A DNA stretch of 64,000 bases from positions 6,815-70,814 of the forward strand of contig NZ_MUYM01000028.1 in assembly GCF_002150765.1 (NCBI RefSeq), read 5' to 3'. The DNA is from Lentzea kentuckyensis (GTDB taxonomy: Bacteria; Actinomycetota; Actinomycetes; Mycobacteriales; Pseudonocardiaceae). The position numbers and the translations under genes were made by a program. The first letter of the stretch is position 1. Every line of letters starts with the position of its first letter. Shown here piece by piece: positions 10,227 to 53,305 of the stretch. The notes below the pieces were generated by a model. That model was not told the DNA's origin. It worked only from the letters and a program-made list of their open reading frames with translations, and did not search any database.

Positions 10227-10256
10227 GAACGTCCTCCTCTGGAGTGATCAGCGGAG

Positions 10257-18509: not shown

Positions 18510-18998
18510 TCACGAACCCGAGGCGATGCGCGCGATGCGTGGTCCCGCAATGAACACGTAGTCGCGCACGTTGAGCACCACAGAGCGGTCAAGCCTGGCG
18601 GCGTTGAAGTAGATGACCTCGTGGTCGAGCAGGCCCACGTCCACCACGACGTCAAGCCTGTCGTGCAGCGGGAACGGCGGGATGGAGCCCACCGCGGCCC
18701 CGCCGTACTCCTCAGCGAGATCCGGGGGAGCGAGGCTCGCGTCCTTGCGCCGGTAGAGCCGCTTCAACGCCTTGAGATCGACCTTGCGGTGGCCCTCGAC
18801 CACGGCCAGCACGAACCGGGACGCGCCTGCCTTGGTGCGGACCTCGGTCACCAGGCACTTGGCCGCCGCGTGCAGGTCGTGGCCACGGGTTCGGCTCGCC
18901 CGTTCCGTGTTGCCCTCCGGTGCGTGGCGCAGGACCGTGTACGGCACGCCGTGCGCGTCCAGCAGGCGCAGGATCGTGGCGAAACCGTCAGTACTCAC
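18510..18998 (-). CDS. YbaK/EbsC-type aminoacyl-tRNA deacylase
   Basis: 162 residues spanning the whole YbaK/ProXp trans-editing fold (VPYTVLRHAPEGNTERASRT; AAKCLVTEVRTKAGASRFVL; the loop GGAAVGSIPPFPLHDRLDVV; a C-terminal FNAARLDRSVVLNVRDYV). Such enzymes hydrolyse mischarged aminoacyl-tRNAs, often Pro-tRNA carrying Ala or Cys. It is the last gene of the NRPS operon, overlapping its neighbour by 11 bases. It may therefore protect against misacylation by a pathway amino acid, or act as a thioesterase-like editor. The role is inferred from context. Confidence 0.85.
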   Translation of the reverse strand: MSTDGFATILRLLDAHGVPYTVLRHAPEGNTERASRTRGHDLHAAAKCLVTEVRTKAGASRFVLAVVEGHRKVDLKALKRLYRRKDASLAPPDLAEEYGGAAVGSIPPFPLHDRLDVVVDVGLLDHEVIYFNAARLDRSVVLNVRDYVFIAGPRIARIASGS

Positions 18999-19353
18999 AC
19001 TCCACCTTGTTCATCGCGCACACCACGTCGTCGAAGACCTCTTCCAGCCCCATCAACACGTCCACGTCGCCGGCCGCCGTGATCAGGCCCGCGCGAAACG
19101 CCTCGCCCGGCATCAGCTCGCGCTGTGCCATCCGGACGGCGGTCTCGTAGGTGTAGCTGAGCGAGGCGTCCGGGGAGGTCGCTTCGCCCGGTGACAGCAC
19201 GACCTTCTCGACGCCCACGTTCAGGGTGAGCGGGGGAGCGGAGGTGATGTTCAGCTGCAGCAAGCAGGAACGGTCCGGCAGCTCGTCCACCAGGTCGTCC
19301 TCGACGATCCGTGACGTGACCGCTTGTGTCCACTCCGGACTGAGAAACCGCAT
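18988..19353 (-). CDS. SCP2-like domain protein
   Basis: 121 residues, MRFLSPEWTQAVTSRIVEDD..., with SCLLQLNITSAPPLTLNVGV, SYTYETAVRMAQRELMPGEAF and LITAAGDVDVLMGLEEVFDD. The pattern (LSPEW start, substrate-cavity strands, Q/A-F-x-xGxIxxxGD motif) is that of stand-alone sterol-carrier-protein-2-like proteins. They bind hydrophobic ligands, so a carrier or chaperone role for a lipophilic intermediate is possible. It lies 7 bases behind the glycosyltransferase and overlaps the deacylase. Confidence 0.7.
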   Translation of the reverse strand: MRFLSPEWTQAVTSRIVEDDLVDELPDRSCLLQLNITSAPPLTLNVGVEKVVLSPGEATSPDASLSYTYETAVRMAQRELMPGEAFRAGLITAAGDVDVLMGLEEVFDDVVCAMNKVECEY

Positions 19354-19360
19354 GGAAACC

Positions 19361-20731
19361 TCACAGGTATCGCGATATCACGGACAGTATTGATTCGGCC
19401 TGCCTGCGAACGGAGTGGTGCTCGCGGACGTAGGCGCTCGCGGCCTCGCCCTTGCCCTCACCCGAACGCCAGGCGTCGTGGGCGGCGCGCAGTTGCTCGG
19501 CCGCGTGGTCCTCGTCGACCAGCCAGTAGTCGCCCGCCGGGCCGTAGTTGCCCACGAAGTCGGCCACGAACTCCTCGCCGGGCGCGTCGGCTGGAACCTT
19601 GACCGGACAGCGGATCGGCCACGCCCACGCGTCGTCCAAATAGTCGATCATGCCGGAGTTGTGGGCGCACACCAGTTCCATGCCGCACGCCATGGCCTCC
19701 AGCGGCGGCAGGCCGACGCCCTCGCCCTTGGACGGCCACAGGAAGCAGTCGTGCGACTGGTACGACTCCAGCACCCGGCCGGGGTCGCCGTCCGACCTGA
19801 CGACGTTCACCCGCGGGTCGGAACGAGCCGCGGTCTTGATGTCGTGGCCCAGTTTGCCGCGGTTCAGGATGGTGAGTTCCCAGTCCGGTGAACCGCCGCT
19901 CGCCGCCTGGAAGACGCGGATCGCGGCGACCACGTTCTTACGCGGGGTGAGCGCGCCGATGATCAGCACCCGGAACCGGGGACCGGGCGGATGCGCGACG
20001 GGTGTGAACACGTCCGTGTCGATCCCGGAGGTCAGCACGGACATCGGGATCGTCACACCCGCCTTCTTCCAGTTGTCGTACTGGAAGCTCGACGTGACGA
20101 TCAGATGCGTGCACTCGTTGACCCACGACGCGAAGCACGGCGGGACAGAGTCGGTGTCGTGCTGGGTGACAGCGATCTTGATCGGGGACGGGTTCTCCCG
20201 CAGCACCGGGTCGAACGGCGTGGTCATCGCGACCGCGATGCGCGCGGGCGATGCGGTGGAGGCGGCCGCACGCACGACGAAGTCGTCGACGTATAGGCAT
20301 TCGGCCTGGTAGCTGGCCGCGTGCTGGTACTGGCTCGGGTGCAGTCGCGCCTCAACGCCCAGCTGGCACAGGCCGCGCCACATGTCCAGCGCCTGGCGGC
20401 CGTAGCCGCGCACTCCGTCGATCGGGCCCCACCAGTCGATCAACGGACGCTGGTCGGATGTTCTGGTCGGCAGCTCCTCGGCGATGTCCGACAGGTCGAC
20501 GTGCAGGTTGTGGTCGTCGGACCGGTGCGCCAGCGCTTCGGTCGTCACCTTGGTCCAGGTTCCTGGTGGCAGCCGCTGACCGTCCAAAGTGGTCTCGTCC
20601 GCGTTGCGGTTGAGCACGGCGACAGTGCGTCCCGGCGGCAGGCCGGTGAACTCCAGGCCGTCGCCGAACTTCGACTCGTGTTGCCGCCAACCCAGACGTG
20701 GGCGGTCCCAGTAGTACCAGAGCGTCGTCAT
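19361..20731 (-). CDS. GT4-type glycosyltransferase
   Basis: 456 residues. The C-terminal Rossmann domain has VLIIGALTPRKNVVAAIRVF and the donor-binding motif KGEGVGLPPLEAMACGMELV. The N-terminal domain includes the acceptor-side segment WWGPIDGVRGYGRQALDMWR. The first ~90 residues (YYWDRPRLGWRQHESKFGDG...) are an unusual extension that I do not recognise. A retaining GT-B enzyme is expected, probably glycosylating the peptide product. ATG 20731 overlaps the E2 stop (ATGA). Longer upstream ORF sequence is out of frame with E2 and not part of this gene. Confidence 0.85.
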   Translation of the reverse strand: MTTLWYYWDRPRLGWRQHESKFGDGLEFTGLPPGRTVAVLNRNADETTLDGQRLPPGTWTKVTTEALAHRSDDHNLHVDLSDIAEELPTRTSDQRPLIDWWGPIDGVRGYGRQALDMWRGLCQLGVEARLHPSQYQHAASYQAECLYVDDFVVRAAASTASPARIAVAMTTPFDPVLRENPSPIKIAVTQHDTDSVPPCFASWVNECTHLIVTSSFQYDNWKKAGVTIPMSVLTSGIDTDVFTPVAHPPGPRFRVLIIGALTPRKNVVAAIRVFQAASGGSPDWELTILNRGKLGHDIKTAARSDPRVNVVRSDGDPGRVLESYQSHDCFLWPSKGEGVGLPPLEAMACGMELVCAHNSGMIDYLDDAWAWPIRCPVKVPADAPGEEFVADFVGNYGPAGDYWLVDEDHAAEQLRAAHDAWRSGEGKGEAASAYVREHHSVRRQAESILSVISRYL

Positions 20732-21765
20732 GTCTGCTCCTGTCCGTAGCCGGTGACGAGGTGGCGGCAGCGGTTGAGGAACTGGCTCACCTCGCGTCCG
20801 GTGGTCACGCGATGGTCGAACGTGGCGGTCACGCAGATCGGCGCGCCGGGCAGCGTCCGGTCGCCGCCGAGACCGATGGCCAGCGCCTGACCGTGGTTGA
20901 GCAACGGCTGAAACGACAGGACGTCCTCCATGGACAGGTCGCTGATCGTCACGCCGCCGCCGGTCACGTCGGACACGGCCAGCTCGTCGTTGAGGTAACG
21001 GGAGACCAGTTCTCCCAGCCGTCGCTCGGTCGCGTCCAGGTCGAGCTGGTCGGCCTCGTGCACCACGCCGACCTTGAGCGAGTCGTCCAGGTCGATGGCG
21101 ACGCCGACGTCGATCGACTCGTGTGTTCGGATCCCGTTGTCGAACCAGGAGTTCAGGTTCGGGAACTCGGTCAGCGCGGACGCCACGGCCCGCACCACGG
21201 TCGCCAGCAGCCGCACCGACGGCACGGTGGCCTTCGCCGCGAACTCGCGCACACCGGCGCCGTCGAACTGGACCGAGATGGCCGCGTTCAGGACGTTGGC
21301 CTCGGCGAGCCGCCGCACCTCCAGTTCCTTGGCCCGGCTCAACGGTTCTGCCGAGCCGGCCGACTGAACGTCCCGCAGCGTCACCACCGGCTGGCCGGCG
21401 AACTGCGAGAGCTCCACACCGTGTTCCTGTGCGTAGCGCAAGGCGGCAGGGGACACCCGTTGCCCGTCGGCTTTCGGGGCAGGTTCGGTTTCCTGAACCC
21501 GCCGCGCCCGCGCGTCGGCCAGCTCGGTCTCGTCGGCGCACACGTAGGCGACGACCTCGCCCACGCGGGCCTCGTGCCGCAATGCGACGGCGGGCACGAC
21601 GAACCCCGCCGACGGGGCCTGGATCTCCACGGTCACCTTGGAGGTCTCCACCTCCAGCAGCGTGTCGCCCTCGTCGACCCGCTGGCCGTCCTCGACGAAC
21701 CAGCCGAGCACGACCGCGGACTCGTCGTTCGCGCCTTCCTGTTCCAGCTTGATCTCCGTGATCAC
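20728..21765 (-). CDS. 2-oxoacid dehydrogenase-type E2 acyltransferase
   Basis: 345 residues. Lipoyl domain 1-80 with Lys43 in EVETSKVTVEI. Short E3-binding-like segment about 104-125 (RVSPAALRYAQEHGVELSQF). CAT-like catalytic domain about 150-345. The catalytic motif is FDHRVTTGREV: the His (318) is present, but the Asp normally found four residues later (HRxxDG) is Thr322. It pairs with the fused E1 immediately upstream (4-base overlap), probably moving a two-carbon or alpha-keto-derived acyl group. The missing Asp suggests an altered acceptor or weaker CoA chemistry (inference). No E3 is present in the window. Confidence 0.85.
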   Translation of the reverse strand: MITEIKLEQEGANDESAVVLGWFVEDGQRVDEGDTLLEVETSKVTVEIQAPSAGFVVPAVALRHEARVGEVVAYVCADETELADARARRVQETEPAPKADGQRVSPAALRYAQEHGVELSQFAGQPVVTLRDVQSAGSAEPLSRAKELEVRRLAEANVLNAAISVQFDGAGVREFAAKATVPSVRLLATVVRAVASALTEFPNLNSWFDNGIRTHESIDVGVAIDLDDSLKVGVVHEADQLDLDATERRLGELVSRYLNDELAVSDVTGGGVTISDLSMEDVLSFQPLLNHGQALAIGLGGDRTLPGAPICVTATFDHRVTTGREVSQFLNRCRHLVTGYGQEQT

Positions 21766-23735
21766 GACTCACCCACCACCTCGAGTGCGGCCAGCACGAT
21801 GTCGCCGGGTTCGGGGAACACGTCGCGCTCCAGCTCCTTCGCCGCCGGGATCGGCGTCTCCTTCGGCACCACCCTGCGCGCGGGCAGGGCGCCGGCCTCC
21901 TCGACGAGCTGCGCCAGCAGCTCCGAGCCGAAGCCCGCGAAGCCCGGCCCCTCCTCGGCCACGACGACACCGCGTCCAGCGGTCAGCACGTCGAGCAATC
22001 TGCGCCACCGCAACGGGTAGATCTGCGTAGGGCACAGCACCTGCGCCAGCACGTCGTGCTCGGTGAACAGCAGGTCGGCCGCCGCGAGCAGGTAGTCGGC
22101 CATGCCGCCGTAGCCGACGAGAGTGACGTCGGCGCGACCGCCCGCCGACACGCGTGCGACCGGGAAGTCCTCTTCGGACAGTTCGAGCGTGAACCCGTGC
22201 GGCACGGTCTCGCCCAGCCTGCGGCCGTACAGGAGCTTGTTCTCCAGGAACACGGTCGGCCCGTGGCCGCCGCGGCACAGCGCGGCGATCAGCGAACCCG
22301 GATCCACCAGGCTGTTGGACGCCACGACCCGCAGTCCCGGCGTGCCGACGAACAGCCGGTCCAACGTCTGGCTGTGGGTCGGGCCGTACCCGCGCCGCCC
22401 TCCCATCGGGGTGCGGACCACCACGTCCACCGGGTCGGCACCGGGGCCGCGCAGGAACGCGATCTTGCTGGCCTGATTGACCAGCTGGTCGGTCGCCAGC
22501 GTCATGAAGTCGCCGAACATGATCTCGACGAACGACCTCATGCCGCACATGGCGAGACCCGTGCCGATGCCGGTGATCGCGGCCTCCGAGATCGGCGTGT
22601 TCAGGACCTTGTCCGGATGGTCGTCCGACAGGCCCCTGGTGACCTTGAACGCGCCACCGTACGGCGCCTTGATGTCCTCTCCCAGCAGGATCGTGTCCGG
22701 GTTCGCCCGCATGCCCGCCGCGAGGGCTTCGTGCAGCGAGTCGACGAACCGCGGGCCGTCGAGCCGCACGGCTCGCAGCCGCAGCGGGGGATCGTCGTCG
22801 ATTTCGGGGTGCGGAAGGGGATTGGGCGACCTGCGTGCGTCGGCGGTCGCCGAGTCCACGACCCGCCGCACGTCCGCGACCATGCCGGCGACACCGGGTT
22901 CGTCCGAGGCGACGATGCGGTTGAGCGGGTCGTGCTCCTCGAACCGCGCGACCTCCTCCTCGCTGCGGTCGTCATCGCCCTTGGAGTGCGCCCGCAGCCG
23001 GTACGTCGACACCTTGAGGAAGAACGGTGCGCCCGCGCGGACGTGCTCGACCGCCTGGCCCGCGGTGTGCCACAGGTGTTCCCACTGCCAGGTGTTCGCC
23101 GACGCGGTCTCGACGCCGAACGCCGAGGCGCGCGCGACGATGTCACCGGCGAGCACCTCGGGCTGCTGGGTCGACTGCGCGTATCCGTTGTCCTCCAGCA
23201 CGAACAGGATCGGCAGACGCCACAACGCGGCGATGTTGAGCACCTCGTACAGAACACCCTCGCCGAGCGTCCCGTCGCCGATGAACGCCACCGCGATCCG
23301 GTCGTCGCCGCGGAGCTTGCCCGCGAGCGCGGTACCCGCCGCGATCGGCAGGCAGCCACCGAGGATCCCGGTCGACAGAAACCCTTCCCGGCACAGGTGC
23401 TGGCTGCCGCCACGGCCTCCGCAGGTGCCCGCCGAGCGCCCCATCACCTCGGCGATGAGCCCGAGCACGTCGCCGGTCGCCGCCAGGTAGTGGCCGTGAC
23501 AACGGTGGTTGGAGAACACCGCGTCACCCTCGCGCAGGTGGTCACCGATCACGGCCGCGCTGAACTCCTGACCGATGCACGTGTGCACCGTGCCGGACAG
23601 GGTGCCCTCCGCGAACAGCTCCAGCAGGCGTTCCTCGACGGCCCTGATCAGCAGGGCGGTGCGGATGATCCGGGCCCGTTCCGGCGCGGGCGGCCCGAGT
23701 GCGCCCGGATCAGTGCGGATGGTGACACTGGACAT
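21762..23735 (-). CDS. Fused E1 alpha-beta thiamine-diphosphate dehydrogenase
   Basis: 657 residues with both E1 subunits in one chain. The alpha half (about 20-320) has IGQEFSAAVIGDHL and the ThDP/Mg motif GDGTLGEGVLYEVLNIA (153 onward), with EDNGYAQST. The beta half (about 328-657) has ILLGEDIKAPYGGAFKVTRG, FGDFMTLATDQLVNQASKIA and LCPTQIYPL. It decarboxylates an alpha-keto acid, or takes a two-carbon unit from a ketose, and passes acyl to the E2 lipoyl arm. From memory, fused E1/E2 pairs in naphthyridinomycin-type pathways load a glycolyl unit onto a carrier protein. A similar starter or extender role is my inference here. Confidence 0.85.
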   Translation of the reverse strand: MSSVTIRTDPGALGPPAPERARIIRTALLIRAVEERLLELFAEGTLSGTVHTCIGQEFSAAVIGDHLREGDAVFSNHRCHGHYLAATGDVLGLIAEVMGRSAGTCGGRGGSQHLCREGFLSTGILGGCLPIAAGTALAGKLRGDDRIAVAFIGDGTLGEGVLYEVLNIAALWRLPILFVLEDNGYAQSTQQPEVLAGDIVARASAFGVETASANTWQWEHLWHTAGQAVEHVRAGAPFFLKVSTYRLRAHSKGDDDRSEEEVARFEEHDPLNRIVASDEPGVAGMVADVRRVVDSATADARRSPNPLPHPEIDDDPPLRLRAVRLDGPRFVDSLHEALAAGMRANPDTILLGEDIKAPYGGAFKVTRGLSDDHPDKVLNTPISEAAITGIGTGLAMCGMRSFVEIMFGDFMTLATDQLVNQASKIAFLRGPGADPVDVVVRTPMGGRRGYGPTHSQTLDRLFVGTPGLRVVASNSLVDPGSLIAALCRGGHGPTVFLENKLLYGRRLGETVPHGFTLELSEEDFPVARVSAGGRADVTLVGYGGMADYLLAAADLLFTEHDVLAQVLCPTQIYPLRWRRLLDVLTAGRGVVVAEEGPGFAGFGSELLAQLVEEAGALPARRVVPKETPIPAAKELERDVFPEPGDIVLAALEVVGES

Positions 23736-23741
23736 CCGCGA

Positions 23742-23963
23742 TCACGCCGTTCCCGTGGCACGTGCCATCCGTTCGCGCAGCCCGCGTGGCCGCATGTCGG
23801 TCCACACCTCGTCGATGTGCGCGAGACACTCCTCACGCGACCCGCTCGGTCCGTTCACCCGCCAGCCGCTCGGCAGTTCCGTGCCCTGCGGCCAGATCGA
23901 GTACTGCTCCTCGTCGTTCATCACGACCTGGTACGTGCCCACAGCGGACTCTCCTTTCGTCAT
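23742..23963 (-). CDS. MbtH-like protein
   Basis: 73 residues carrying the family signature NDEEQYSIWP, LPSGWRVNGPSGSREECLAH and IDEVWTDMRPRGLRERM. MbtH-like proteins bind adenylation domains and are needed for their folding or activity. This one should serve some of the five A domains of the cluster. The ATG at 23963 overlaps the hydroxylase stop by 4 bases. The E1 gene starts 6 bases after its stop. Confidence 0.95.
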   Translation of the reverse strand: MTKGESAVGTYQVVMNDEEQYSIWPQGTELPSGWRVNGPSGSREECLAHIDEVWTDMRPRGLRERMARATGTA

Positions 23964-24877
23964 GACGTGGTCGCCTCGGCCATGGCGACGAGCACCTTGC
24001 GCGGCGGCGTGTAGGAACGTCGGCCGTGTGCGGCGAGCAGGTTGTCCACCAGCAGCACGTCGCCGTCGCACCACGCGACGTCGACCATCTCCGCGTCGTA
24101 GGCGGCGCGGACCTCGTCGAGGTGCTCGACGGGGATGTCGCCGCCGTCGCCGAAGAACGCGTTGCGCGGCAGGCCGTCCTGGCCGAACAGCAGCGTCAAC
24201 GCCTCCCGCGTCTCCTCGTCCAGCGCGGAGGGGTGGAAGAGGTGCGCCTGGTTGAACCAGACGTGCTCGCCGGTCGCGGGATGCGTGGCGACCGCCGGGC
24301 AGACCTGGCTGGTGCGCAACAGGTCGCCGTCCCAGCGGAAGTCGATGTCCGCCTCGCGACAGAACTTCTCCACGTTCGCGCGGTCCTCGGTCTGGAAGAC
24401 CTCCTGCCAGGGCAGGTCCATGCCCGCGCCGTAGTTGCGGACGTAGCGCACACCCCGTCGTGCGAACTGGTCCCGGATCTCCGGATCGACGCGCCGGTAC
24501 ACCTTGCGGCTGTCCGCCAGCGGCGTCGCCCCGCCCGCCGCCGCGGCCTGCTGGCAGTAGAACCACAGCTTCGCCGGCCACGTGCGCGAGTAGGAGTTCT
24601 CGTTGTGCATCGGGATCTGCTCGTCCGGCGGGTACTCCGTGGACGTGTAGACGCCCGTTTCGGCCTGTTTGCGCGGCGTCGATCGGTAGGTGTAGTCGAG
24701 CAGGTCCGGTGTGTACGACCGGGCCACGTCGCGGAAGCCCGACGGGTCGTTCACGTCGAAGCCGCGGAACAGCAGCGCGCCGGCCTCGTGCAACTTCGCG
24801 AGCAGCGCGTCGTGGTCGCGGCGCAGTCGTTCCGCGAGATCGGTTGTGTCGTCCGGTGTCAGCAGATACGGCAACAT
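23960..24877 (-). CDS. SyrP-like Fe(II)/2-oxoglutarate hydroxylase (TauD family)
   Basis: 305 residues. GALLFRGFDV begins the jelly roll. The iron ligands are His91 and Glu93 in PMHNENSYS plus the distal His284 in DNLLAAHGRRSY, and Arg293 (PPRK) should bind 2-oxoglutarate. The HxE variant and the YTSTEYPPDEQIPMHNEN context resemble clavaminate-synthase/SyrP-type enzymes. SyrP hydroxylates the beta carbon of Asp while it is attached to a T domain. Two A-T proteins in this cluster carry an Asn/Asp-like code, so beta-hydroxylation of carrier-bound Asx is the leading hypothesis. Confidence 0.85.
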   Translation of the reverse strand: MLPYLLTPDDTTDLAERLRRDHDALLAKLHEAGALLFRGFDVNDPSGFRDVARSYTPDLLDYTYRSTPRKQAETGVYTSTEYPPDEQIPMHNENSYSRTWPAKLWFYCQQAAAAGGATPLADSRKVYRRVDPEIRDQFARRGVRYVRNYGAGMDLPWQEVFQTEDRANVEKFCREADIDFRWDGDLLRTSQVCPAVATHPATGEHVWFNQAHLFHPSALDEETREALTLLFGQDGLPRNAFFGDGGDIPVEHLDEVRAAYDAEMVDVAWCDGDVLLVDNLLAAHGRRSYTPPRKVLVAMAEATTS

Positions 24878-24879
24878 GT

Positions 24880-26092
24880 CTAGCCTTCCGTTCGATTCGC
24901 TTGCGGGGGAACCACTTTCCCGGCGAACGCCGACCCGGCCGCAGCGAGCAGGCAGACACCCGCGAGCGCGACGAGCAGTGACACGCCGTGCCCACCGCCG
25001 AGCAGCCATCCCGCTGCTGCCGGGCCCGCGATCTGCCCGAGCTGGGTGGAGAGGTTGAACACCGCGTTGTAGCGGCCGCGGACACCCTCCGGCGCGAGAT
25101 CGTTGATCATCGCGGGCAGGGTGGGCGCGAGCAGCGCTTCGGCCAGCGCGAACACCGCCATCGCGAGCACCAGCGTGACGGGGCTCGGCGCGGACGCCAT
25201 CAGCAGCCACGACACGGCGAACACACACCCGGCCGCGGCGGCTCCGGTGGTTCTCCTCGATTGACGTTTGATGACGACCAGCTGGCTCACCGCCAGCACA
25301 GCCGTGTTGACCGCGAACGCCACGCCCACCACGGTCGTCGACACTCCGGCGGGGCCGGTCGCCCACGCCGGGAACGCCGCGGTGGTCTGACTCAGCGCCG
25401 CCGTCCAGAACATCGTGTTCAGCACGAACGCGACCAGCAGCGCCCGATCTCCGAGCACGGCGCGGTATCCGGGGTTCTCCCGGCGCGGTTGCCGGTACCC
25501 GCGGTCGAGCGTCAGCAGGACGAACGCGAACAGCACGAACGAGACTCCGTCAACGAGGAAAACCGTTGTGTAGGCCGATGTCTCGCCGAGTGACAGCACG
25601 AGGCCCGCCGCGAGGGCACCCATGCCGGTGCCGATGTTGTACGTCGTGTACCCCAGGCCGAACGCCGCGCCACGTTGCTGCGCGGGTACCACCACCGCGA
25701 GCAGAGTGGACAGTCCGTTGGTCGTGATGCCGCCGGACGCGCCCAGCAACAGGCAGGCGATCAGCGCGGTCGTGACATCGTCGGCCAGCACGAACCCGGC
25801 CGTGCCGACGCCGCCGACGACCTGGCCGGCGGCGAACGCCTTGAACGGGCCGATCCGGTCGATCAGGACGCCCGCGAGAGGCATGGCGAGGAGTCCTGCC
25901 AGCCCGATCGAGCCCAGTAGCAGACCCGCGGTCGCCAGTCCGATGCCGCGCACCTCGTGGAGGTACACGATGAGGAACGGCTTGGTGAGCCCGCTGCCGA
26001 AGCACGACAGCAGGTTCAGGCCGAGCACCAGCCACGCGGTGCGGCCCAGCGGCGGGACCAGCCCGCCGGAGGGGCCGCTCGCGGTGGCGGAG

Positions 26093-26106
<14 letters not shown>
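24880..26106 (-). CDS. MFS efflux transporter
   Basis: 408 residues with about 12 membrane helices and the MFS loop motif GVLIDRIGPFKAFAAGQVVG between helices 2 and 3. A second such loop is APEGVRGRYNAVFNLSTQLG. DHA1-like drug:proton antiporter architecture. It lies inside the operon, overlapping the A-T gene by 14 bases and 2 bases from the hydroxylase, so export of product or a precursor and self-resistance are likely. It is redundant with the ABC exporter at 45392-47774. Confidence 0.9.
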
Positions 26107-27867
<1,761 letters not shown>

Positions 27868-27871
<4 letters not shown>

Positions 27872-29487
27872 GAGTGGTCCTCCTCAAAGTTCTCGTTGCG
27901 CCACATGGCTTCCACCTCGTCGCGGATGCCCTCCGAGTCCGGCGTGCCCGCGACGCTCTCCGGCGACTCGATGGCGCGCGCGAGCTTCTCGACCGAGGTC
28001 AGGCTGAAGATCGTCTCGACCGGGATGGCGACACGGAGCGTGCGCCTGATCTGCCGCATCGCCCGCACGGCCAGCAGCGAGGTGCCGCCCATCTCGAAGA
28101 AACTGGTCCGTACGTCGAGCTCGTCCCTGCCGAGCAGACGGCGGAAGATGTCCGTCAGCTCGGTTTCCAGCTGTGTCCGGGGTTCCGGTGAGGTGCGTTC
28201 GAGGGTTACCGGCGCCGCGGCCGCGACCAGGTCCGCGCGGTCGAACTCGACCCGCGCGTCCGGCTCGTCGAGCATCTCCTCGACGACGTCGAGCCATTCG
28301 GCTGCGATGCGTTGCGCCGTCGGGAGGTCGAACAGGTCGGAGTTGTACTCGAGCCAGCCGCTCATCGCGTCGCCGTCAGGACGCAAGGCGAGCCGCAGGT
28401 CGAACATCGCGGTGTCGCGCGGAACGTCGCGCGGCGTGAGCCGGGCACCGGGCAGGTCGACCACCGGCGCCGGGGTGTTCTGCACGGCGAAGAACACGTG
28501 GAACAACGACCTGCTGCGATCAGGGGCGACCTGCTCGACGACCTGTTCGAACGGCGCGTCCTGGTGCGAGAAGGAGTCGAGGCTGGTGTCCCGGACACGG
28601 CGCACCAGTTCGCGGAACGTCGGGTCGCCGTCGATGTCGGCCCGCAGCACCACCGTGTTCACGAACAATCCGATGCTGCGCTCCACCTCGGGCATCCCGC
28701 GCCCGGCGACCGGGGTTCCCACCGCGAAGTCGGCCTGACCGGACCGGCGGGCGAGCAACGCCTCGAACGCGGCCAGCAGCACCATGAACGTCGTCGCCCG
28801 CTCCTGCGCGGCCAGGTCGGCGACCCGCCGGGTCAGCACCGGCGGCAGGTGCACGTCGACCCGTCCGCCGCGGAACGACTGGCGCTCGGGGCGCGGCCGG
28901 TCGGTGGGCAGCGCGAGCGAGGGCACCCCGGCGAGCCGGTCGCGCCAGAACGCGAGGTCCAGCCGGGCGGCCTGCTCCCGTTGCCACTCCGAGAAGTCCG
29001 CGTACTGGATCGGCAGCTCCGGCAGGTCGGGGGAGCGTCCGCCGGTGATGGCCCGGTAACACTCGGCGAGCTCGTCGAAGAACACCGCGAGCGACCAGCC
29101 GTCGCAGATGATGTGGTGGGCGTCCAGCCTCAGCACCCGTCCGGACAGCCTCATCCTGAGCAACGGCAACCGGTCCAGCTCGAACGGCTCGTCGGTCTCG
29201 TCGAGCGGGATCTCACCGGTCGGCTCGATCACCTGGCACAGCCGGCCGCCGAAGCGTTCGTCGTCCTCGTCGAACAGCACGAACCTGGTCCGCAGGATCT
29301 CGTGCCTCGCGACCAGGACCGCGAGCGCCTCGCGCAGCACCTCCAGGTCGAGCTCACCGTCCACTTCGAACTCGCCCGACATGTGATAGGTCCGGTGTGC
29401 CTCGGGATTCAGCTGGCACAGGAACCACATCCGCTGCTGGGCGAACGAGGCCGGGAACACGTAGCTCTCGGCGAGGCGTCCGCTCAT
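27868..29487 (-). CDS. NRPS C-T didomain
   Basis: 539 residues. Condensation domain about 10-430 with HHIICDG (124-130), then a T domain about 440-515 with FFEMGGTSLLA (Ser470; Thr replaces the usual His/Asp before the Ser). There is no adenylation domain, so the T domain must be charged by another protein, plausibly the adjacent A-T didomain. It starts inside the stop of the trimodular NRPS (4-base overlap) and should extend that enzyme's tripeptidyl chain. The acidic C-terminal tail ends EEDHS. Confidence 0.9.
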
Positions 29488-32400
29488 GACGATCCTCCCT
29501 GTCGATAGGTGACCCGGCGTTGTCTGGTGATCGCGGGCGCCGCGGTGGCCTGTTGCTGTCCGCTCATCTCGTCCGCCAGCTCGGCCACCGTCGGGTGGTC
29601 GAAGAGCGCCCGCAGCGACACGGGAAGCCCGAGCGACTGCCGGATGCGAGCGACGACGGCATTCGCCAGCAGCGAGTGGCCACCCAGCTCGAAGAAGTCG
29701 TCGTGCCGCCCGATGCCGTCGCGGCCGAGCACCGCCTGCCAGATGTCGGCGATCTGCCGTTCCACGTCGTTGGCAGGCCGCTCGTGTCCGGCGCCGGTCC
29801 AGTCGGGATCGGGCAGGCGCAGCCGGTCGACCTTGCCGGTGCGCGTGTGCGGCAGCTCCGGCAGCTGGATGTAGGAGTCCGGCACCAGGTACGACGGCAG
29901 CACCGCGCGCATCCGCGTCCTGAGGTCCGGATCACCGACCACGTACGCGACGAGGTGGTCTTCTCCGCGGTCGTCTGACCGGACTACCACCGCGGCCGCG
30001 TTCACTCCGGGGCATCCCCGCAGCGCGGCTTCGACCTCGGCGGGTGCGATCCGGTGGCCGCGCAGCTTCACGTACCCCTCACCCCGGCCCGCGAACTGCA
30101 GCGTTCCGTCCGGCAGCCGCCTCAGCACGTCACCGGAGTCCCAGTGGCCTCCCGCGACCTGGGGGCCGCGGCACACGGCCGGACCGTGCGGTTCGGGAAG
30201 CTCGATCTCGATGCCCGGGACGGGCCGGCCGACGGGCACGCTGTCCCTCCGGTCGGCGGGATCGGCCACGTGCAACGTGGCGAGCGTGCATTCGGTGGCA
30301 CCGAACAGGTTCACGACCGTGCAGTCCAAGCCCGCGATGTCGGAGCCGCGCAGCTCTTCTCCTCCGAGCACCGCGACGCGGACCGTCTCCGGCCAGCCGG
30401 AGGGACGCAGGTGACGAAGCACTGTGGGGGTCGAGTGGTAGACGGTCACGCCCGCGTCGCGGATCTGGGCGACCACCTCGTCGGCAGACGACGCCCGCAC
30501 GTCGATCGGGCACAGCGTCGCGCCGGTCAGCAGTGCGCCGAAGATGTCCAGCACGGCCGCGTCGAACGTGTACGAGCTCAGCTGGGACACGCGGTCATCT
30601 GGCCGGATGCCCAGTGCCTTCACGTAGTTCCGCACATGCAGCATCACGTTGCGATGGGTCTGCGCGACACGCTTCGGCTCGCCTGATGACCCCGACGTGT
30701 GCAGCAGATAGGCGACATCTTCTGGCGCGTTCCGCGCAGTGGCGATCGGCTTTCGATGATCACCACTGGCCGGATCACCAGAACGGCCGAGGCCGACCGT
30801 CGGCAGACCCAGGTCCGCGTCGACGTCCGTGACCACGGCGGCGAGTTCGGCGGCTCTGGCCAGCTGAGCCAGCCGTTCGGGCGGGTCGGCCGGATCCAGC
30901 GGCACGTACACGTGTTCCGCCGCCAGCACACCGAGAAACGCGTCGGGCACGCGCGTGACGTCCGTGCACAGGACACCGACGTGACTCCCCGGCTCCAGAT
31001 GACGCAGGTGGTACGCGAGACCTCCTGCCGACTCGGCCAGCTCGCGATAGGTTCGGCCGGCCACCGCGATGTTGTCCGGACACGCCTCGACGATCTCCGC
31101 GAACCGGTCCGTGATCGACTGCTCCGGCAGCGCCACCGGTGTCGGCGCCTCGGGCTCGCGCAGGCCGAGGTCGGCGACGCGGACGTCCCGTTCTGTCATC
31201 TGCCGCAGCACCTCGGCGTAGTCGGCGAGCAGCTGTCGCACGGTGTCCGCCTCGAACAGGCCGGCGTCGTACTCGACCAGCAGGTCGAGGCCGCCGTCGG
31301 AAGCGCCGGACAGGTACACGTCCAGGTCGAACTTGGGCGCGGGCCTGGGCGTGTCCACCGGCGTGACCGTGAGGCCGTCGAGCTCGGGCACGGTGGTGGG
31401 CAGGTCCAGGTTGTTGAACACCACCCGCGGCGCCCGCCCCGCCGGACAACCCTGGTGCGCGAAGGCGTCGATCACCGTGCGCCGCACCCGGCCGACGACG
31501 TCCAGGACGGGATCGTCCGCGGTCACGGACGTCCGGATCACCGGTGTGCTGACGAACATCCCGATCGCGCGCTCCAGCCCCGGCTGGTCGCGACCCGCCA
31601 CCGGCACGCCGACCGCGATGTCGTCCTGGCCGGTGTGCCGGTGCAACAGCACGGTGAACCCAGCGAGGAGCACCATGAACGGCGTCGCGCCGGTGCCGGC
31701 GGCGAGACCGCGCAGCGCGTCGAGCACACTGCTGTCCACAGTGGACCTGCAGACGCCGCTGATCTCCCGGCTCGGCTGCCGGACGCGGTCCGTGGGCAGC
31801 TCCAGCGGTGCGAGATCGGCGAGCTGCTCGTCCCAGTAGTCGTGGTCGACGCGTTGCCACTGCGTGAAGTCGACGTGCTGCAGTGGTGGATCGGGCAGCG
31901 TGCCACCGTTGTAGAACGTGGCCAGCTCGGTGAAGAAGACCGGCAACGACCAGCCGTCGCACACCAGGTGGTGTGCGGTCAGCGTGAGGACGTCCTCGTA
32001 CAGCGAGGCGCGCAGCAACGGAGGGCTCGTCAGGTCGAACGGCCGGTCGTCGGGTTCGCGGCTCAGCGTGAAGTCCACCGACGGGTGGATCCGTTGCCGC
32101 ACCCGGCCGTCGACGCTCACGAACCCGGTGCGCAACGGCTCGTGCCGTCGCACGATCTCCTGCAACGCGCCTTCCAGCCGGTCGACGTCCACGGGACCTC
32201 GCAGTCGCAGCGCGCCGCTCACGGTGTACGCGAGGTTCGCCGCGGGACTCAGCTCCGCCGCGAGCCACACGCGTTCCTGCGCGGGCGACGCGGGCATGTC
32301 CGGCTCGCGCCGCACGCGTTCGATCGGCCGAACCCTGGAACCGGTGCGGACCACCTCGGCCAGCCCGGCGACGGTGGGGTGCCGGAACACCGCGCTGACC

Positions 32401-35400
32401 GGCACGTCCACGCCGGTGAGAGCACGCAGCCGGGACACCAAGCGGACCGCGGACATCGAGTGCCCGCCGAGCCGGAAGAAGTCGTCGTGCGCCGCGGCCG
32501 CGCCGCAGCCGAGCACCTCGGCCCACACGGACGCCACGAGCTCCTCGGTGGCCGACAGGACCGCCACCCCTGTCTTCCCGGTGCGAGCGGACGGCAGCGC
32601 CTTGCGATCTACCTTTCCGTTGGGCGTCAACGGAAGCGAGTCGAGCACCAGCACGGATGACGGGACCAGGTGGCCGGGCAGCCGGTCGCGCAGCCACTCC
32701 CGCACGGCGTCGCCGTCGACGGCACCGACGACGTAGCCGACGAGAGCGTCGCCGACCACACCGGCGACGGCCTGGGTGACCCCGGAGAACCGGGACAGCC
32801 AGGTCTCCACCTCACCGAGCTCCACCCGGAACCCGCGCACCTTCACCTGGTTGTCGGCGCGTCCGACGAACGTGAGGCCGCCGTCGTTGCGGTAGCGCGC
32901 CAGGTCGCCGGTGCGGTACAGCCGGGAGCCGTCCGCCGCGGGCACGAACCGGTCCGCGGTCAGCCCACCGCGTCCGTGATAGCCGCGTGCCAGTCCGACA
33001 CCGCCGACGCACAGCTCGCCCACCACACCGACGGGCGCGCGCCTGCCGTCCTTCATCACCACCACCCGCTCGCCCGCGAGCGGACGGCCGAGGCTGATCG
33101 ACGTGGGGTCGACCAGCTCGTCCACTGTGGACCAGATGGTCGTCTCGGTCGGCCCGTACACGTGATGTACCGGCGCTCCGGTGTCGAGCAGCCGCCTGGC
33201 CAGCTCGGACGGCATCGGCTCCCCGCCGCACAGGCACCGGACGCCGTCGGGCCGCCAGCCCGCGTCCAGCAGCATCCGCCACGTCGTCGGCGTCGCCTGC
33301 ACGACCGTCGCGCCGACCTCGGTCAGCCTGCGGCCGAGCAACGCCGGGTCCATCACCTCCTCGCCGGTCAGCACCGCGACCTGCGCGCCGCACGTCAGCG
33401 GGAGGAACAGTTCGAGCCCGGCGATGTCGAACGACAGCGTCGTGACGGCCGCGACCACGTCGCCGGGCGAGAGCGGCACCTCGGCGGCGATCGCGCGCAG
33501 GAACGCGACGATCGCGCGGTGGGGGATGGCCACGCCCTTGGGCGATCCGGTCGAGCCGGACGTGTAGATCAGGTAGGCGAGGTTGTCCGGATCGACGTCG
33601 GCGGACACCGCCTCGGCGGGCAGCCCGGCCAGCGCCTCGGCTGTCACGTCCGGGTCGTCGAGCACCAGCGCGGCGCCGGAGTCGGCGAGCACGAGATCGA
33701 TCCGCTCCGCCGGGTACGCCGGGTCGACGGGCAGGTAGGCCGCGCCGGCCTTGAGGATTCCCAGCAGCGCCACGACCATCCACGGCGTGCGCGACATCCG
33801 GACGCCGACGACGTCCTCCGTGCCGATTCCCCGCGCCCGGAGCCGGTGCGCGAGCCGGTTCGACCACAGGTCGAGCTCGGCGTAGGTGAAGGCGTCCCTG
33901 ATCGCCGTCCCGCTGCCCGCCACGAGCTGGTGCAGGCACGTCGCCGGCTCGTCCAGCGCCGGTCCGGTGCCCCACTCGTCGAGCACCGCCCGTTCGGCGG
34001 GATCCACCAGGTCTACGTCCGCCAGCGGCGTGTCGGGGCCGGCGCCCAGCACCGTGTTCATGTGCCGGACGAGCCGCTGCGCGGTGTCGCGGTCGAACAG
34101 GTCGGTGTTGTACTCCAGCCAGCCGTCGCCGGCGGGGTCGACCGACAGCCACAGGTCGAACTTGGCGGTGTCCGTCGGCAGCTCGACCAGCGGCAGCCTC
34201 ACCGGGGGAGTGTTCTGCATGGCGAAGAACACCTGGAACAGCGGTGACCGGCTGGTGTCGCGGTGCGGGTCGACAGCGCGCACGACCCGTTCGAACGGCA
34301 CGTCCTGGCGGGAGAACGCCTCCAGGCTCGCTGCCTTCACCCGGCCGACGAGCTCGCGCAGCGTCGGGTTCCCGGACACGTCCGCCCGCACCACGACGGT
34401 CTCCGCGAACAGCCCGATCGCCCGTTCCAGACCGGGATGTCCGCGTCCGGCGACCGGTGTGCCGACCGCGAAGTCCGGGTCACCTGACCACGTGGCCAGC
34501 ACGGCCTGGTACGCCGCCAGCAGCGCCATGAACGGCGTGGCACCGCAGTCCTGCGCGAGTTCGCCGGTGGAGAGCGACACCGGCACGCGATCGCCGCGGT
34601 AGGTCTGCGTCGGCGGCCGGGGCCGGTCGGTCGGCAGGCCGATCGGCTCGAGGTCCTTCAGCGTCCTGCGCCAGTGATCGAGGTCGGGCTCCTGCTGCCG
34701 TTGCCACACCGCGAAGTCCGCGTGCTGGATCGGCAGCTCCGGCGGCAGCCCGCCGTCGTACAAAGTGGACAGTTCATCGAAGAACACCGACAGCGACCAG
34801 CCGTCGCAGACCAGGTGGTGCGCGGTCAGGGTGAGCACGTCGCCGGTGAGCGAGGCGCGCAGCAGTGGCGGGCTCGTCAGGTCGAACGGCCGGTCGTCGG
34901 GCTCACGGCTCAGCTCGAAGTCCACCGACGGCAGGATCCGTTGCCACACCTGCCCGTCCTCGTGCACGAAGCCGGTGCGCAGCGGCTCGTGCCGTCGCAC
35001 GATCTCCCGCAAGGCCCGTTCGAGGCGGTCGACGTCGACGGGGCCGGGCAACCGAACGGCGCCCCGCATGAGGTAGGCGCGGCCGGCGTCCATCTCGTTG
35101 AGGAACCACAACCGTTCCTGGGCATGGGAAGCCGGAACGCGGTCGCGGGCGACGGGCGTGATTCCCCCTGCTGCGGGCGGGCCGGCCGCGACCGCTTTCG
35201 TCAGCTCCGCCACCGTCGGGTGGTCGAACACCGCGCGCACGCCGATCTCGACCTCGAACACCTCGCGCAGCCGTGATGCGACCCGCGTCGCCGCCAGCGA
35301 ATGCCCGCCGAGGTCGAAGAAGTCGTCGTCCACGCCGACCGTGCGGCCGAGCACCTCGGCGAACACGGACGCGACCAGCTCCTCGGCGCTGGTTCTGGGG

Positions 35401-38033: not shown

Positions 38034-38166
38034 CGCGACATTCCCATCGAAGGCACGTCGAATGGTCGAATGGCGGAACGGTCTCCTCTCACCGAGCCGT
38101 TCCCAGGCCTTTTCTTTGTGGCACAACGACGTTCCGGTCAGTGGTTGCCAGAACGTGAACCCCAGG

Positions 38167-38183
38167 ACATGTAACGTCCATGT
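38167..38183. promoter_or_regulatory. Candidate operator in the NRPS leader
   Basis: Inverted repeat ACATG-N7-CATGT, about 10-26 bases downstream of the predicted start point of the minus-strand NRPS promoter. A repressor bound here would block the 11-gene operon. It is short and could be coincidental. Confidence 0.35.
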
Positions 38184-38199
38184 AGCCCCAGTGCCATCC

Positions 38200-38227
38200 A
38201 CCATACGAGTAGCCATCTGGGTGTCAA
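38200..38227 (-). promoter_or_regulatory. Predicted promoter of the NRPS operon
   Basis: On the minus strand, TTGACA (38227-38222), 16 bases, then TATGGT (38205-38200). The -35 is a perfect sigma70/HrdB consensus and the -10 is a fair match. It predicts a leader of about 160 bases before ATG 38033. Confidence 0.6.
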
Positions 38228-38531
38228 ATCGGCGGGCAAAACCCAAAATTGTCAGCCTTTGTCACCGAACACGGTCAGGTTCACCGGTCTGGACTAGTTT
38301 GGGTTCGCTCACCCGCGGTAGTGGCGTGGTGCGGGGACACGGAGTGCTAGCCGCCCACCTGGAAGCTGAGTCCAGCGACGTGGAATTGGCCACGGCGCGT
38401 CACCTGCAGGGCCGGCTCTTCTCACTCGGACGGAGCATTGCCGGTTTGACAACGGTTTCTTCGGGGAGTTCTGTCGACGTCAGGTCTCCTCTCACCAGCC
38501 GCTCCGGCCGCGATCCCACCGGAGCGATCTG

Positions 38532-39860
38532 ATGACGAGCACCGCCGAACTGGCGCCGTTGCGCCACGACATCGAGCAGGTCATGTCGGCGCACGCGATA
38601 CCGGGCGTGAGCGCGGGCGTGCTCGCCGACGACGGCACCGAGCACCTGCAGACTCTCGGCGTCCGCGACGTCGGGGGACGTGCGCCGGTCGGGCCCGACA
38701 CGCCGTTCCGCGCCGCCTCGGTCAGCAAGATCGTCACCGCGTCCGTCCTCATGAGACTGTCCGAGGCCGGTGACCTCGACCTGGATCTGCCGGTCCGCAC
38801 CTATCTGCCCACGTTCCGGGTGCGCGATCCCGTTGTCACCGAGTGCGTGACGCTGCGCGACCTCGTCACCCACCGCGCGGGCTGGGTGTCCAACTTCTGC
38901 GAACGACGGCCGCACGACGAGTTCGGCGACGACGCGCTCGCCGCCGCCGTCACGGACCTCGCGCACGCCGCGCAGATCAGCCCGCCCGGCCGGTTCTACT
39001 CCTACTGCAACAGCGGGTTCTCCGTGCTGGGCCGCGTGATCGAGGTGGTGACCGGCACGTCGTTCGAGGACGCGGCGGACCAGCTGGTGCTGCGACCGGC
39101 AGGGCTCACCCGCACGCACTTTCCAGAGGACGGTTCCCCGCCGCCGGGAATCGCGTTGGGGCACAACGGAATCCCACCCGAGGTGGCACGACCGTGGAGC
39201 CGGTCGCGGGCACGGTCGCCGTCCGGCGGGCTCGTCACCACGGTGCGGGACCTGCTCGGGTTCGCGCGTTCGCTGCTGGACGGCTCCGTGCTGGCGCCGG
39301 AGACGGTCGAGGCCATGTGGACACCGCAGGCAGAGGCTGTCGGGTTCGCGGAGTCCATCGGCTTCGGCTGGAACGTCGACCACCTGGCGGACGGCACGTC
39401 GTACGTGGGGCACGGCGGCAACTCCGACGGGTACGTCGCGGTGCTGTCGATCGTGCCCGGCAAGCGGTTCGCCGTCGCGGCGCTGCTGAACTCGACGGCG
39501 TTCCCGCCACTCGGCGGCATGATCCAGGACTGGGCGACCGAGCTCTTCCTCGGCACGGCAAGGCCGGACGTGCCGGTGCGGGGCGAGATCCCGAAACCGG
39601 ACGTCACCGCGTATCTCGGCCGGTACACCGACGGCGTCGACCGCGTGGACGTCGTCGACTCGCCGACCGGTGTCGTGCTGCGCCCGCCCGCGAACCGTCA
39701 GGACCTGCCCGCCACCGAGGTCCGGTTCACCGGAGCCGACGAGGGTGTCACGACCATCGCGGGCGCCCGGCTCGTGGTGCGGTTCCTGCGGGACTCCTCC
39801 GGCGCCGTGAGCTGGCTGCGGATCACCGGCCTCGTCTTCCGGCGGGAGGACTTCCGTTGA
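38532..39860 (+). CDS. Beta-lactamase-family serine hydrolase
   Basis: 442 residues. Class-C/DD-peptidase fold: SxxK = Ser63-Lys66 (AASVSKIVTA), YxN = Tyr158-Cys-Asn160 (FYSYCNSGFS), and the third motif HGG in YVGHGGNSDG. C-terminal beta domain about 355-442. No signal peptide, so it acts in the cytosol, unlike penicillin-binding proteins. As first gene of the right operon it could hydrolyse or transfer a peptidyl/acyl group: leader removal, chain release, or resistance. Cluster-encoded members are known as esterases, transacylases and peptidases. Confidence 0.85.
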   Translation: MTSTAELAPLRHDIEQVMSAHAIPGVSAGVLADDGTEHLQTLGVRDVGGRAPVGPDTPFRAASVSKIVTASVLMRLSEAGDLDLDLPVRTYLPTFRVRDPVVTECVTLRDLVTHRAGWVSNFCERRPHDEFGDDALAAAVTDLAHAAQISPPGRFYSYCNSGFSVLGRVIEVVTGTSFEDAADQLVLRPAGLTRTHFPEDGSPPPGIALGHNGIPPEVARPWSRSRARSPSGGLVTTVRDLLGFARSLLDGSVLAPETVEAMWTPQAEAVGFAESIGFGWNVDHLADGTSYVGHGGNSDGYVAVLSIVPGKRFAVAALLNSTAFPPLGGMIQDWATELFLGTARPDVPVRGEIPKPDVTAYLGRYTDGVDRVDVVDSPTGVVLRPPANRQDLPATEVRFTGADEGVTTIAGARLVVRFLRDSSGAVSWLRITGLVFRREDFR

Positions 39861-41323
39861 GCGGCATGGACTTCGCGGACTACCGGCGGTTCGACGGACT
39901 CGGGCTGGCCGAGCTGGTGCGCACCGGCGAGGTGACGGCGGGGGAGTTGCTGGAGACCGCGATCGGGCGTGCGGAGGCGGTCAACGGACAGATCAACGCG
40001 ATCGTGCTGTGGATGACCGAGATCGCGCGGGAACGTGCGCGGCTGCCGTTGACCGGCCTGTTCGCCGGGGTGCCGTTCCTGGTCAAGGACCTCAACCAGG
40101 ACTACGCGGGTACGCCGACCTCACGCGGCAGCGCGGCGTGGCGCGACGTCGCCGCGACCGAGCACGCCGACGTCGTGAGCCGCTGGCTGGATGCGGGTCT
40201 CGTCGTGTTCGGCAAGACGAACACGCCGGAGTTCGGCGCGAAGGCGACGACTGAGCCGCTGGCGTTCGGCCCCACGCGCAATCCGTGGGACCTGACCAGG
40301 ATCGCCGGCGGTTCGTCCGGCGGGGCCGCCGCGGCGGTGGCGGCGGGCGTCGTGCCGGTCGCGGGCGCGAGCGACGGCGGCGGCTCGATCCGCATTCCGG
40401 CCGCGTGCTGCGGCCTGCTCGGCCTGAAACCCAGCCGTGGCCTGGTGCCGGCGGGCCCGATGCATGCCGAGCTCATGCACGGCGCGAGCACGCACGGCGT
40501 GATCTCGCGCAGCGTCCGTGACACCGCGGCGATGCTCGACTGCCTTGTCAGACCGGTGGACAGTTACCTCGAAGCGCTCGTGAAACCGTTGCCACGCCTG
40601 CGGATCGGTTACACCGAGCGGTCGTTCCGCGGTGTGCCGTCGACGCTCACGGCGGTGCGCCGCACCGCCGATCTCCTCGCGGAGGCCGGCCACGACGTCA
40701 CCGAGGCGGACCCCGGCATCGACGGCGACGCGCTCGCCGCGGACTTCCTCACCGTCTGGTACGCGCGAATCGCCGCGACCGTCGCGGAGACCCGGCAGGT
40801 GACCGGCTCACTGCACGGGCTGGAGCTCGACAGCGTGCTCGCCGCCGGCATCGGCAGGTCCATCCCCGCGCCCGTCTACGTCGCGGCGCAAGCACGTTGG
40901 CACGACCACACGCGGGCGCTCGCGAAGTTCCACCAGCGGTACGACGTGCTGCTCACCCCCACCGTGGCCGGTCCGGCGCCGCCGATCGGCGCTCTGGAGA
41001 CCCCGAGGTGGATGCGCGACGCAGGTCGTCTCGTCCGCGCGGTCGGCCTGAACCGGGCGGTGGTCCGCGCGGGCCTGGTCGACCGGATCGCGCGCACGAC
41101 GCTGGGCTGGGCGCCGTTCACCCAGCTGGCCAACGTGACCGGATGCCCTGCCGTGTCCGTGCCCGCCGATCCGGAGGGCGGCCTGCCGCTGGGCGTCCAC
41201 TTCGTTGCTCCGAACGGTGGCGATGCCCTCCTGCTCCGGCTCGCGGCTGAACTCGAAGAGATCGCGCCGTGGGCGCACCGCCACCCGTCAGAGAGGAACT
41301 TCGATGAAGCCGTGCCTGCATGA
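39857..41323 (+). CDS. Amidase-signature hydrolase
   Basis: 488 residues with the amidase-signature triad: Lys77 ([10 protein letters not shown]), cis-Ser154 ([12 protein letters not shown]) and nucleophile Ser177 ([16 protein letters not shown]). It cleaves or forms a C-N amide bond; the substrate is unknown. A pathway role could be trimming a peptide, or amide formation or hydrolysis on the Asx side chain. TTG 39857 is preferred over ATG 39866 because GGGAGGA lies 6 bases upstream of it and it overlaps the previous stop (TTGA). ATG 39866 remains possible. Confidence 0.85.
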
Positions 41324-51712: not shown

Positions 51713-51732
51713 CACGGCCTTTCACGGTGTGC

Positions 51733-51765: not shown

Positions 51766-51773
51766 TGGTGGGG

Positions 51774-53288: not shown

Positions 53289-53305
53289 GCCTTTCCCCCA
53301 GTTCA

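Follow-up and report, generated by a model that had tools for sequence, protein, structure and literature searches.

The stretch of the Lentzea kentuckyensis genome analysed here (64,000 nucleotides of contig NZ_MUYM01000028.1, assembly GCF_002150765.1; hereafter the window, by whose own numbering features are placed unless another locus is named) carries a gene pair encoding an E1, an enzyme dependent on thiamine pyrophosphate (TPP), and an E2 acyltransferase, set among the genes of a nonribosomal peptide synthetase (NRPS) cluster. Based on the sequences of the pair and its relatives, we believe that it is probably a RenH/RenI-type two-component transketolase-acyltransferase that loads a C2 unit, probably glycolyl, onto an NRPS carrier and not onto coenzyme A (CoA). 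It is a real, dedicated acyl-loading pair beside an NRPS line, and it is a further member of the RenH/RenI subtype of a NapB/NapD-like clan, found here in an unrelated NRPS cluster. The two genes are:

21762..23735, minus strand: E1 alpha-beta fusion (TPP enzyme) of the RenH type, 657 residues, with the Pfam domains E1_dh, Transket_pyr and Transketolase_C
20728..21765, minus strand: E2 acyltransferase of the RenI type, 345 residues, with a lipoyl domain, a vestigial E3-binding segment and the motif DHRVTTG

Architecture of the pair and the HRxxDG motif of the E2

All three E1 domains (PF00676, PF02779, and PF02780) were identified by Pfam within a single reading frame. The E2 gene, which starts with GTG and overlaps the E1 gene by four bases amid closely spaced minus-strand NRPS genes, encodes a lipoyl domain (Biotin_lipoyl, 40.6 bits), with its attachment residue at Lys43, and an acyltransferase core (2-oxoacid_dh, 114.3 bits). 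The motif of this core retains the histidine (His318) and has a threonine (Thr322) at the position of the Asp in HRxxDG. A first-pass annotation, made from the letters of the window, had noted the alpha-beta fusion, the DHRVTTG motif with Thr322 in place of Asp and the lack of an E3 in the window, and our Pfam, motif and TIGR01350 analyses confirmed all three. The fusion was considered as a special mark of this E1 and rejected, as ordinary E1s of the same taxonomic family may also be alpha-beta fusions (e.g., L161, L162, L165, L167, L169, and L170).

The threonine is not a quirk of the lineage, an explanation we rejected because the three other E2s of the genome all keep the Asp (DHRVVDG, DHRLVDG, and DHRVCDG). 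In the collected loci there were 126 distinct motif-bearing E2 matches, 101 of them outside the biosynthetic clan, and an additional 17 without a readable motif that were not counted (16 in short loci, plus L057). The motif position in the 101 is occupied by Asp in 95, Asn in three and Tyr in two, with one spurious motif (L149). A threonine here is thus abnormal for the housekeeping E2s of the lineage, a point on which the first-pass annotation had left its reading open to revision. The biosynthetic E2s (21 of the NapD type and four of the window type) were chosen for the motif count by score and not by motif. Thr or Ser is present at the Asp position in 4/4 window-type E2s, the three from genomes G393, G978, and G205 all having Ser (DHRVTSG in two and DHRVSSG in one), and Asn is present in 21/21 of the NapD type. 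Asn was also found in the E2s of two named plasmid records, those of Streptomyces sp. NBC_01136 and S. cattleyicolor. The E2 of a third such record, that of Nonomuraea gerenzanensis (L196:13553-14935), reads DHRTVTG; its E1 sits in the Asn-type clade, beside one with an Asn E2, and for this reason its threonine probably arose separately.

The catalytic His was kept in all 25 biosynthetic E2s, as well as in RenI, L195, L196, and L197. Its conservation bears on the idea that the E2 core is catalytically dead, its lipoyl domain serving only as a shuttle and another enzyme, such as a condensation (C) domain, transferring the acyl group to the carrier. The loss of the Asp in the clan is consistent with such a core, as is the shortness of the stretch ahead of DHR: it has 18 residues in each of the four window-type E2s from actinobacteria (the window, L014, L016, and L172), against a median of 25 in those other E2s where it was measurable (12/21 of the NapD type and 84/101 outside the clan). 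A dead core would need no His, however, and we give this idea only a slight chance of being correct.

The segment between the lipoyl domain and the core of the window E2 scored 19.8 bits as an E3_binding domain, below the Pfam cut-off of 23.7 and in agreement with the short segment seen at first pass, in comparison with 53-55 bits in all three of the genome's own housekeeping E2s. None of the eight other biosynthetic E2s scanned (G205, G978, G393, L083, L137, L174, L182, and RenI) had a match at E ≤ 1, and with the window included the cut-off was reached in 0/9. Loss of the Asp and of the full E3-binding domain is common to the clan members examined, and the window E2 does not combine the Asp in HRxxDG with an E3-binding domain, as the E2 of a 2-oxo acid dehydrogenase complex does. 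Two E3s above the TIGR01350 cut-off were identified in the genome (assembly 92% complete), both encoded on other contigs (C198 and C210), and none of the genome's 41 TIGR01350 matches falls in the window. The first-pass annotation had taken the lack of an E3 to mean that the transfer is non-oxidative, which does not follow: when lipoamide is reductively acylated, the TPP-bound unit is oxidised and a dihydrolipoyl group remains, so that turnover needs an oxidant, and E3 is encoded elsewhere. What the missing E3 does suggest is that reoxidation is probably borrowed, which would fit the loss of the E3-binding domain.

The pair might instead be an ordinary pyruvate or branched-chain 2-oxo acid dehydrogenase that makes acyl-CoA precursors, with Thr322 a harmless substitution. 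Such an enzyme would fit the retention of His318 and of the E2 core, the availability of E3 in the cell and the Asn or Tyr found at the Asp position in 5/101 E2s outside the clan, and yeast E2 mutants at this Asp reportedly lose activity only in part. It would not account for the loss of both the Asp and the E3-binding domain across the clan members examined, nor for the E1 trees and the adjacent carriers without adenylation (A) domains described below, and we consider it very unlikely.

Kinship with RenH/RenI and with NapB/NapD-type pairs

Relatives were found at E ≤ 1e-25 in 3/397 genomes of the order, the window's own genome included. Among the matches listed from a GTDB-based contig collection were two clear relatives, in Saccharothrix sp. 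ALI-22-I (54%, 2e-104) and Micromonosporaceae bacterium KJ-029 (37%, 2e-51), taken as genomes G393 and G205, respectively, and the next of the listed best 80 loci reached only 3e-30. A further window-type relative, G978, was added by a family search with another query. A phylum-wide search matched 68/396 genomes, with a score of 605.8 bits for the window against 148.6 for the second-best match, and produced no additional window-type E2 from these 396 genomes; one of its lower matches (L047 in G719) proved to be NapD-type.

A weaker relative, from Streptomyces griseus BIG105 (L083), has consecutive genes for E1 alpha, for E1 beta fused to E2 and for a beta-ketoacyl synthase III (KASIII). These gene kinds are the ones reported as DinU, DinS, and DinQ in a passage of the dnacin paper, which matches them to NapB, NapD, and NapE (PMC7570522). 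When the L083 E1 alpha was used as query, matches at E ≤ 1e-50 were obtained in 7/150 genomes of one genus, and within the window's family (249 genomes searched) there were 16 places at 344-524 bits, with G393, G978, and the window at 232-236 bits and ordinary E1s at 174 or below. The NapB/NapD-type set is made up of stand-in operons, identified by domains, gene order and size. It comprises the 23 NapB-type stretches that were read (L083, the seven of the single genus and 15 of the 16 family places, G924 being left out), 21 of which have a recognisable E2, while L138 and L187 do not and stand outside the count of 21/21 given above. The E1 pair of L138 (G813, 8645-10659) is divergent and branches basally in the NapB-type clade, no E2 having been recognised in its 20-kb stretch. 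A Thermus plasmid (L198:4953-7140) encodes an E1 alpha, an E1 beta and an 82-residue biotin/lipoyl-type protein, followed by a TRAP transporter, and no E2 was recognised within the 11.9 kb read.

The E1 alpha, beta and concatenated trees (with 26, 31, and 40 rows of ordinary E1s, respectively) all split the window type and the NapB/NapD type from the ordinary E1s at 100/100. This result supports the kinship with naphthyridinomycin-type pairs that was suggested at first pass, with NapB/NapD represented by the stand-in operons. In the concatenated tree, the only one to include RenH, the window, G393, G978, G205, and RenH form one clade (96/92) that is sister to 23 NapB/NapD-type rows; RenH is a long branch, and its placement inside this clade is weak (82/18). 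In the E2 tree (61 rows, motif masked), support was 100/100 for the window type and 100/99 for the Asn type. The E1 trees and the motif counts given above also support the first-pass view of the genes as a dedicated biosynthetic pair in an NRPS operon.

The trees bear on a further explanation, that the pair is a duplicated, drug-resistant version of an E1/E2 target which protects the producer. The pair is located in a biosynthetic cluster, and a 2-oxo acid dehydrogenase E2 is described as the likely target of dynaplanin in a passage of the paper on that compound (PMC9239090). However, the pair is distant from the housekeeping paralogues of its own genome (27-36% identity, except for 41% over one 61-residue stretch), has neither the Asp nor a complete E3-binding domain, and is grouped with pairs from other biosynthetic clusters. 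We rejected the resistance copy on the basis of the paralogue distance and the E1 tree, and find it hardly credible.

The top match in a tblastn search of plasmid records with the window E1 was RenH (47.5% identity over 94% of the query, in one piece), which was found in four records of Candidatus Endohaliclona renieramycinifaciens. On plasmid p-ren of this sponge symbiont (MK748462), RenH and RenI have the same arrangement as the window pair, namely an E1 alpha-beta fusion and a separate E2 with an overlapping gene (the overlap of RenI with RenH is 26 bases), and RenI (DHRVLTG) has Thr at the Asp position in common with the window E2. RenH/RenI, and not NapB/NapD, is the closest named relative found; the likeness to naphthyridinomycin-type pairs proposed at first pass holds for membership of the clan but not for the nearest named pair. 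Both clusters also have a C domain joined to a thiolation (T) domain without an A domain: RenK is FAAL-T-C-T, with the last T lacking an A domain, whereas the C-T protein of the window is separate and has no FAAL. For RenA-D, RenG, RenJ, and RenL, a phmmer search of the window gave no hit at E ≤ 1e-5. As these proteins have no counterpart there, we rejected a renieramycin-type tetrahydroisoquinoline pathway for the window and conclude that its product is not of the renieramycin class. No mention of a role for RenH as supplier of a C2 unit, or of EtuP1/EtuP2, was found among the papers listed in the literature searches.

Diagnostic E1 residues were defined on the NapB/NapD branch alone, with the window type excluded from their choice. 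The window has 25/46 of these residues in alpha and 18/41 in beta, and RenH has 26/46 and 19/41. Ordinary E1s have a maximum of 9 and 9 (medians of 3 in 46 rows and 2 in 94 rows), and branch members outside the residue choice (L195-L197) have 45-46/46 in alpha and 38-40/41 in beta. Clan-specific residues are abundant in segments such as SNHRxHGHY, GSQH, and HSKGDD in alpha, and PYGGAFK and RGYGPTHSQ in beta, and it is our conjecture that they have a part in binding a sugar phosphate.

The window E1 departs from the branch at 21/46 alpha and 23/41 beta diagnostic positions, Leu for Gln at alignment position 127 being among the departures. These would suit a pair that loads a carrier in the same way but with a unit other than glycolyl, the E1 decarboxylating pyruvate or another 2-oxo acid so that acetyl or a larger acyl group is loaded, and the pepteridine E1 and E2-T-C proteins have been proposed to use 2-oxo acids (PMC5384830). 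Against this, the diagnostic positions that are retained, each of which is present in less than 25% of ordinary E1s, lie within the segments just named, among others. The C2 unit of the RenH pathway, moreover, is presumably hydroxyacetyl, and we consider a unit other than glycolyl to be unlikely.

The NRPS cluster and the candidate acceptor

The other features of the window to which we refer are:

18510..18998, minus strand: YbaK-type aminoacyl-tRNA editing domain protein (Pfam tRNA_edit)
18988..19353, minus strand: SCP2-like protein (Pfam SCP2)
19361..20731, minus strand: family 4-type glycosyltransferase, with a four-base overlap with the E2 gene
23742..23966, minus strand: MbtH-like protein (Pfam PF03621, 75.8 bits)
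23960..24877, minus strand: TauD-type Fe(II)/2-oxoglutarate oxygenase (Pfam TauD, 155.7 bits; start inferred inside a longer open reading frame)
24880..26106, minus strand: major facilitator superfamily transporter (Pfam MFS_1)
26093..27871, minus strand: free-standing A-T protein (Pfam), signature D-L-T-A-V-G-E-V-A by eye from motif anchors
27868..29487, minus strand: C-T didomain NRPS protein without an A domain, candidate acyl acceptor (Pfam; T site FFEMGGTS)
29484..38246, minus strand: NRPS of 2920 residues, C-A-T-C-A-T-C-A-T (TTG start uncertain; three HHLVCDG motifs, three T sites)
38532..39860, plus strand: PF00144 serine hydrolase (beta-lactamase/penicillin-binding protein type; Pfam), divergent from the NRPS
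41205..43055, plus strand: second free-standing A-T protein (Pfam)
42952..44163, plus strand: NAD_binding_4 (thioester-reductase-type) protein (Pfam)

The best candidate acceptor for the acyl group would be the T domain of the C-T protein that lacks an A domain, in which the HHxxxDG and T-site motifs are both intact. In 5/5 window-type clusters (the window, G393, G205, G978, and the renieramycin plasmid) there is a protein that has a T domain but no A domain, and such a carrier adjoins the E2 gene in G393 (as C-T), G205 (as C-T-C) and G978 (as a free T). The first-pass suggestion that a carrier protein is the likely acceptor gains support from these arrangements.

Several points weigh against this acceptor, or against glycolyl loading by the pair more generally. 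By Pfam, neither a free acyl carrier protein (ACP) like NapC nor a KASIII like NapE was found among the window's open reading frames of at least 55 residues. The C-T protein is encoded ~4 kb from the E1 and could instead get an amino acid from the A-T protein at 26093-27871; in G205, too, the C-T-C gene is followed by one that encodes an A domain. The Asp is not invariant among ordinary E2s (95/101), and in the E2 tree the biosynthetic clades are separated from the ordinary E2s at only 96/72, with long branches. Comparison with the NapB/NapD branch was through the stand-in operons, in place of the named NapB, NapD, QncN, QncL, and SclQ sequences. The window and RenH each depart from this branch at about half of its diagnostic positions, and therefore the donor may differ as well. 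That RenH/RenI supply the C2 unit of renieramycin is our assumption, as the record gives names only. The precedent of scleric acid is also not absolute, in that deletion of sclQ1-4 left residual scleric acid, which a passage of the paper ascribes to free glycolate (PMC6335953).

With regard to the remainder of the cluster, Pfam showed no thioesterase domain in the NRPS proteins, and the PF00144 hydrolase is a possible trans-acting release (offloading) or cyclisation enzyme, a role that we infer. The first adenylation signature of the NRPS, read via motif anchors, resembles what we take to be alanine codes and the second what we take to be glycine codes. The YbaK-type editing protein is at the end of the NRPS gene run, near the SCP2-like protein and the glycosyltransferase. 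The plus-strand genes beyond the NRPS also include those for an amidase, an acyl-CoA dehydrogenase and an ABC transporter. Three of the plus-strand genes, for the second A-T protein, the NAD_binding_4 reductase and the acyl-CoA dehydrogenase, are consecutive (41205-45392), and their products might serve to oxidise or reduce an amino acid bound to a carrier. Further along (48443-54907), three consecutive proteins combine FG-GAP repeats with a DUF2961, CHAP or glucosaminidase domain. PF04738, the N-terminal domain of lantibiotic dehydratases, is present in proteins encoded near the pair in G393 and G205 (L015:7970-10240 and L017:7537-9786), in clusters of the NRPS/polyketide synthase (PKS) type; neither the window nor the 20 kb of G978 that was read gave a match to it.

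Proposed loading reaction and comparison with known systems

In the loading reaction that we propose, the fused E1 would bind TPP and cleave a C2 unit from an alpha-ketol, with a ketose phosphate as the donor suggested by analogy, to produce a TPP-bound C2 carbanion. This unit would then be taken up by reductive acylation onto the oxidised lipoyl group at Lys43 of the E2. The E2 core, with His318 and no Asp, would hand over the acyl group, which is most likely glycolyl, to the carrier's phosphopantetheine and not to free CoA. The resulting dihydrolipoyl would be reoxidised, presumably by a housekeeping E3 that acts without a docking domain. The lipoyl steps are reportedly those of NapB/NapD. 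We infer the donor, the identity of the acyl group, the acceptor and the route of reoxidation, the donor and the glycolyl identity coming from kinship alone.

There are precedents for loading of this kind. A passage of the scleric acid paper states that QncN/L/M govern how a glycolyl unit is made and attached, and proposes that SclQ1-4 do likewise, from a ketose phosphate (PMC6335953). Carrier loading is similarly described, in the passages concerned, for DinS/T/U of dnacin (PMC7570522) and for the pepteridine E2 that is fused to T and C domains, the authors of the latter study having proposed direct priming of the T domain in place of CoA, with an E3 from elsewhere in the cell (PMC5384830).

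The lack of the Asp and of a full E3-binding domain, the clan-specific E1 residues and a nearby T domain without an A domain are simple genome marks by which a loader may be told from a housekeeping pair, and the same marks could be used to predict C2 hydroxyacyl units in cryptic NRPS products. The point of specialist interest is the joint loss of the HRxxD Asp and the full E3-binding domain in clan members, and the question of whether an E2 that loses this Asp switches from CoA to carrier proteins has become testable. As a tentative extension, which we hold to be possible but doubtful, this joint loss could be a clan-wide mark of such a switch. The window-type pairs would then represent a mobile cassette that feeds ketose-derived hydroxyacyl units into C-T modules without A domains, in NRPS and NRPS-PKS lines of various kinds other than those for tetrahydroisoquinolines, with ester links of the depsipeptide type as the result.

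Of the known systems, NapB/C/D, QncN/M/L, DinU/T/S, and SclQ1-4 resemble the window pair in their E1 clan and in a lipoyl E2 without the Asp, as judged from the stand-in operons, and in having a carrier protein as acceptor and an NRPS setting, according to passages of the papers that describe them (PMC6335953; PMC7570522). They differ from it in that E1 alpha is separate, E1 beta is often fused to the E2, and Asn takes the place of Thr/Ser, and in that they have an ACP of their own as well as a KASIII partner in Nap and Din; in E1 alpha, the NapB-type stand-ins and the window share ~41-50% identity. The pepteridine pathway (Photorhabdus plu2792-plu2799), likened here by its description in a passage of the paper, has E1- and E2-like proteins without an E3, together with T and C acceptor machinery, as in the window, but its T and C domains are fused to the E2 and its proposed donors are 2-oxo acids (PMC5384830). 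Lastly, the pyruvate and branched-chain 2-oxo acid dehydrogenase complexes have folds and TPP and lipoyl chemistry in common with the window pair, and differ from it in that they typically keep the Asp, bear an E3-binding domain and transfer the acyl group to CoA.

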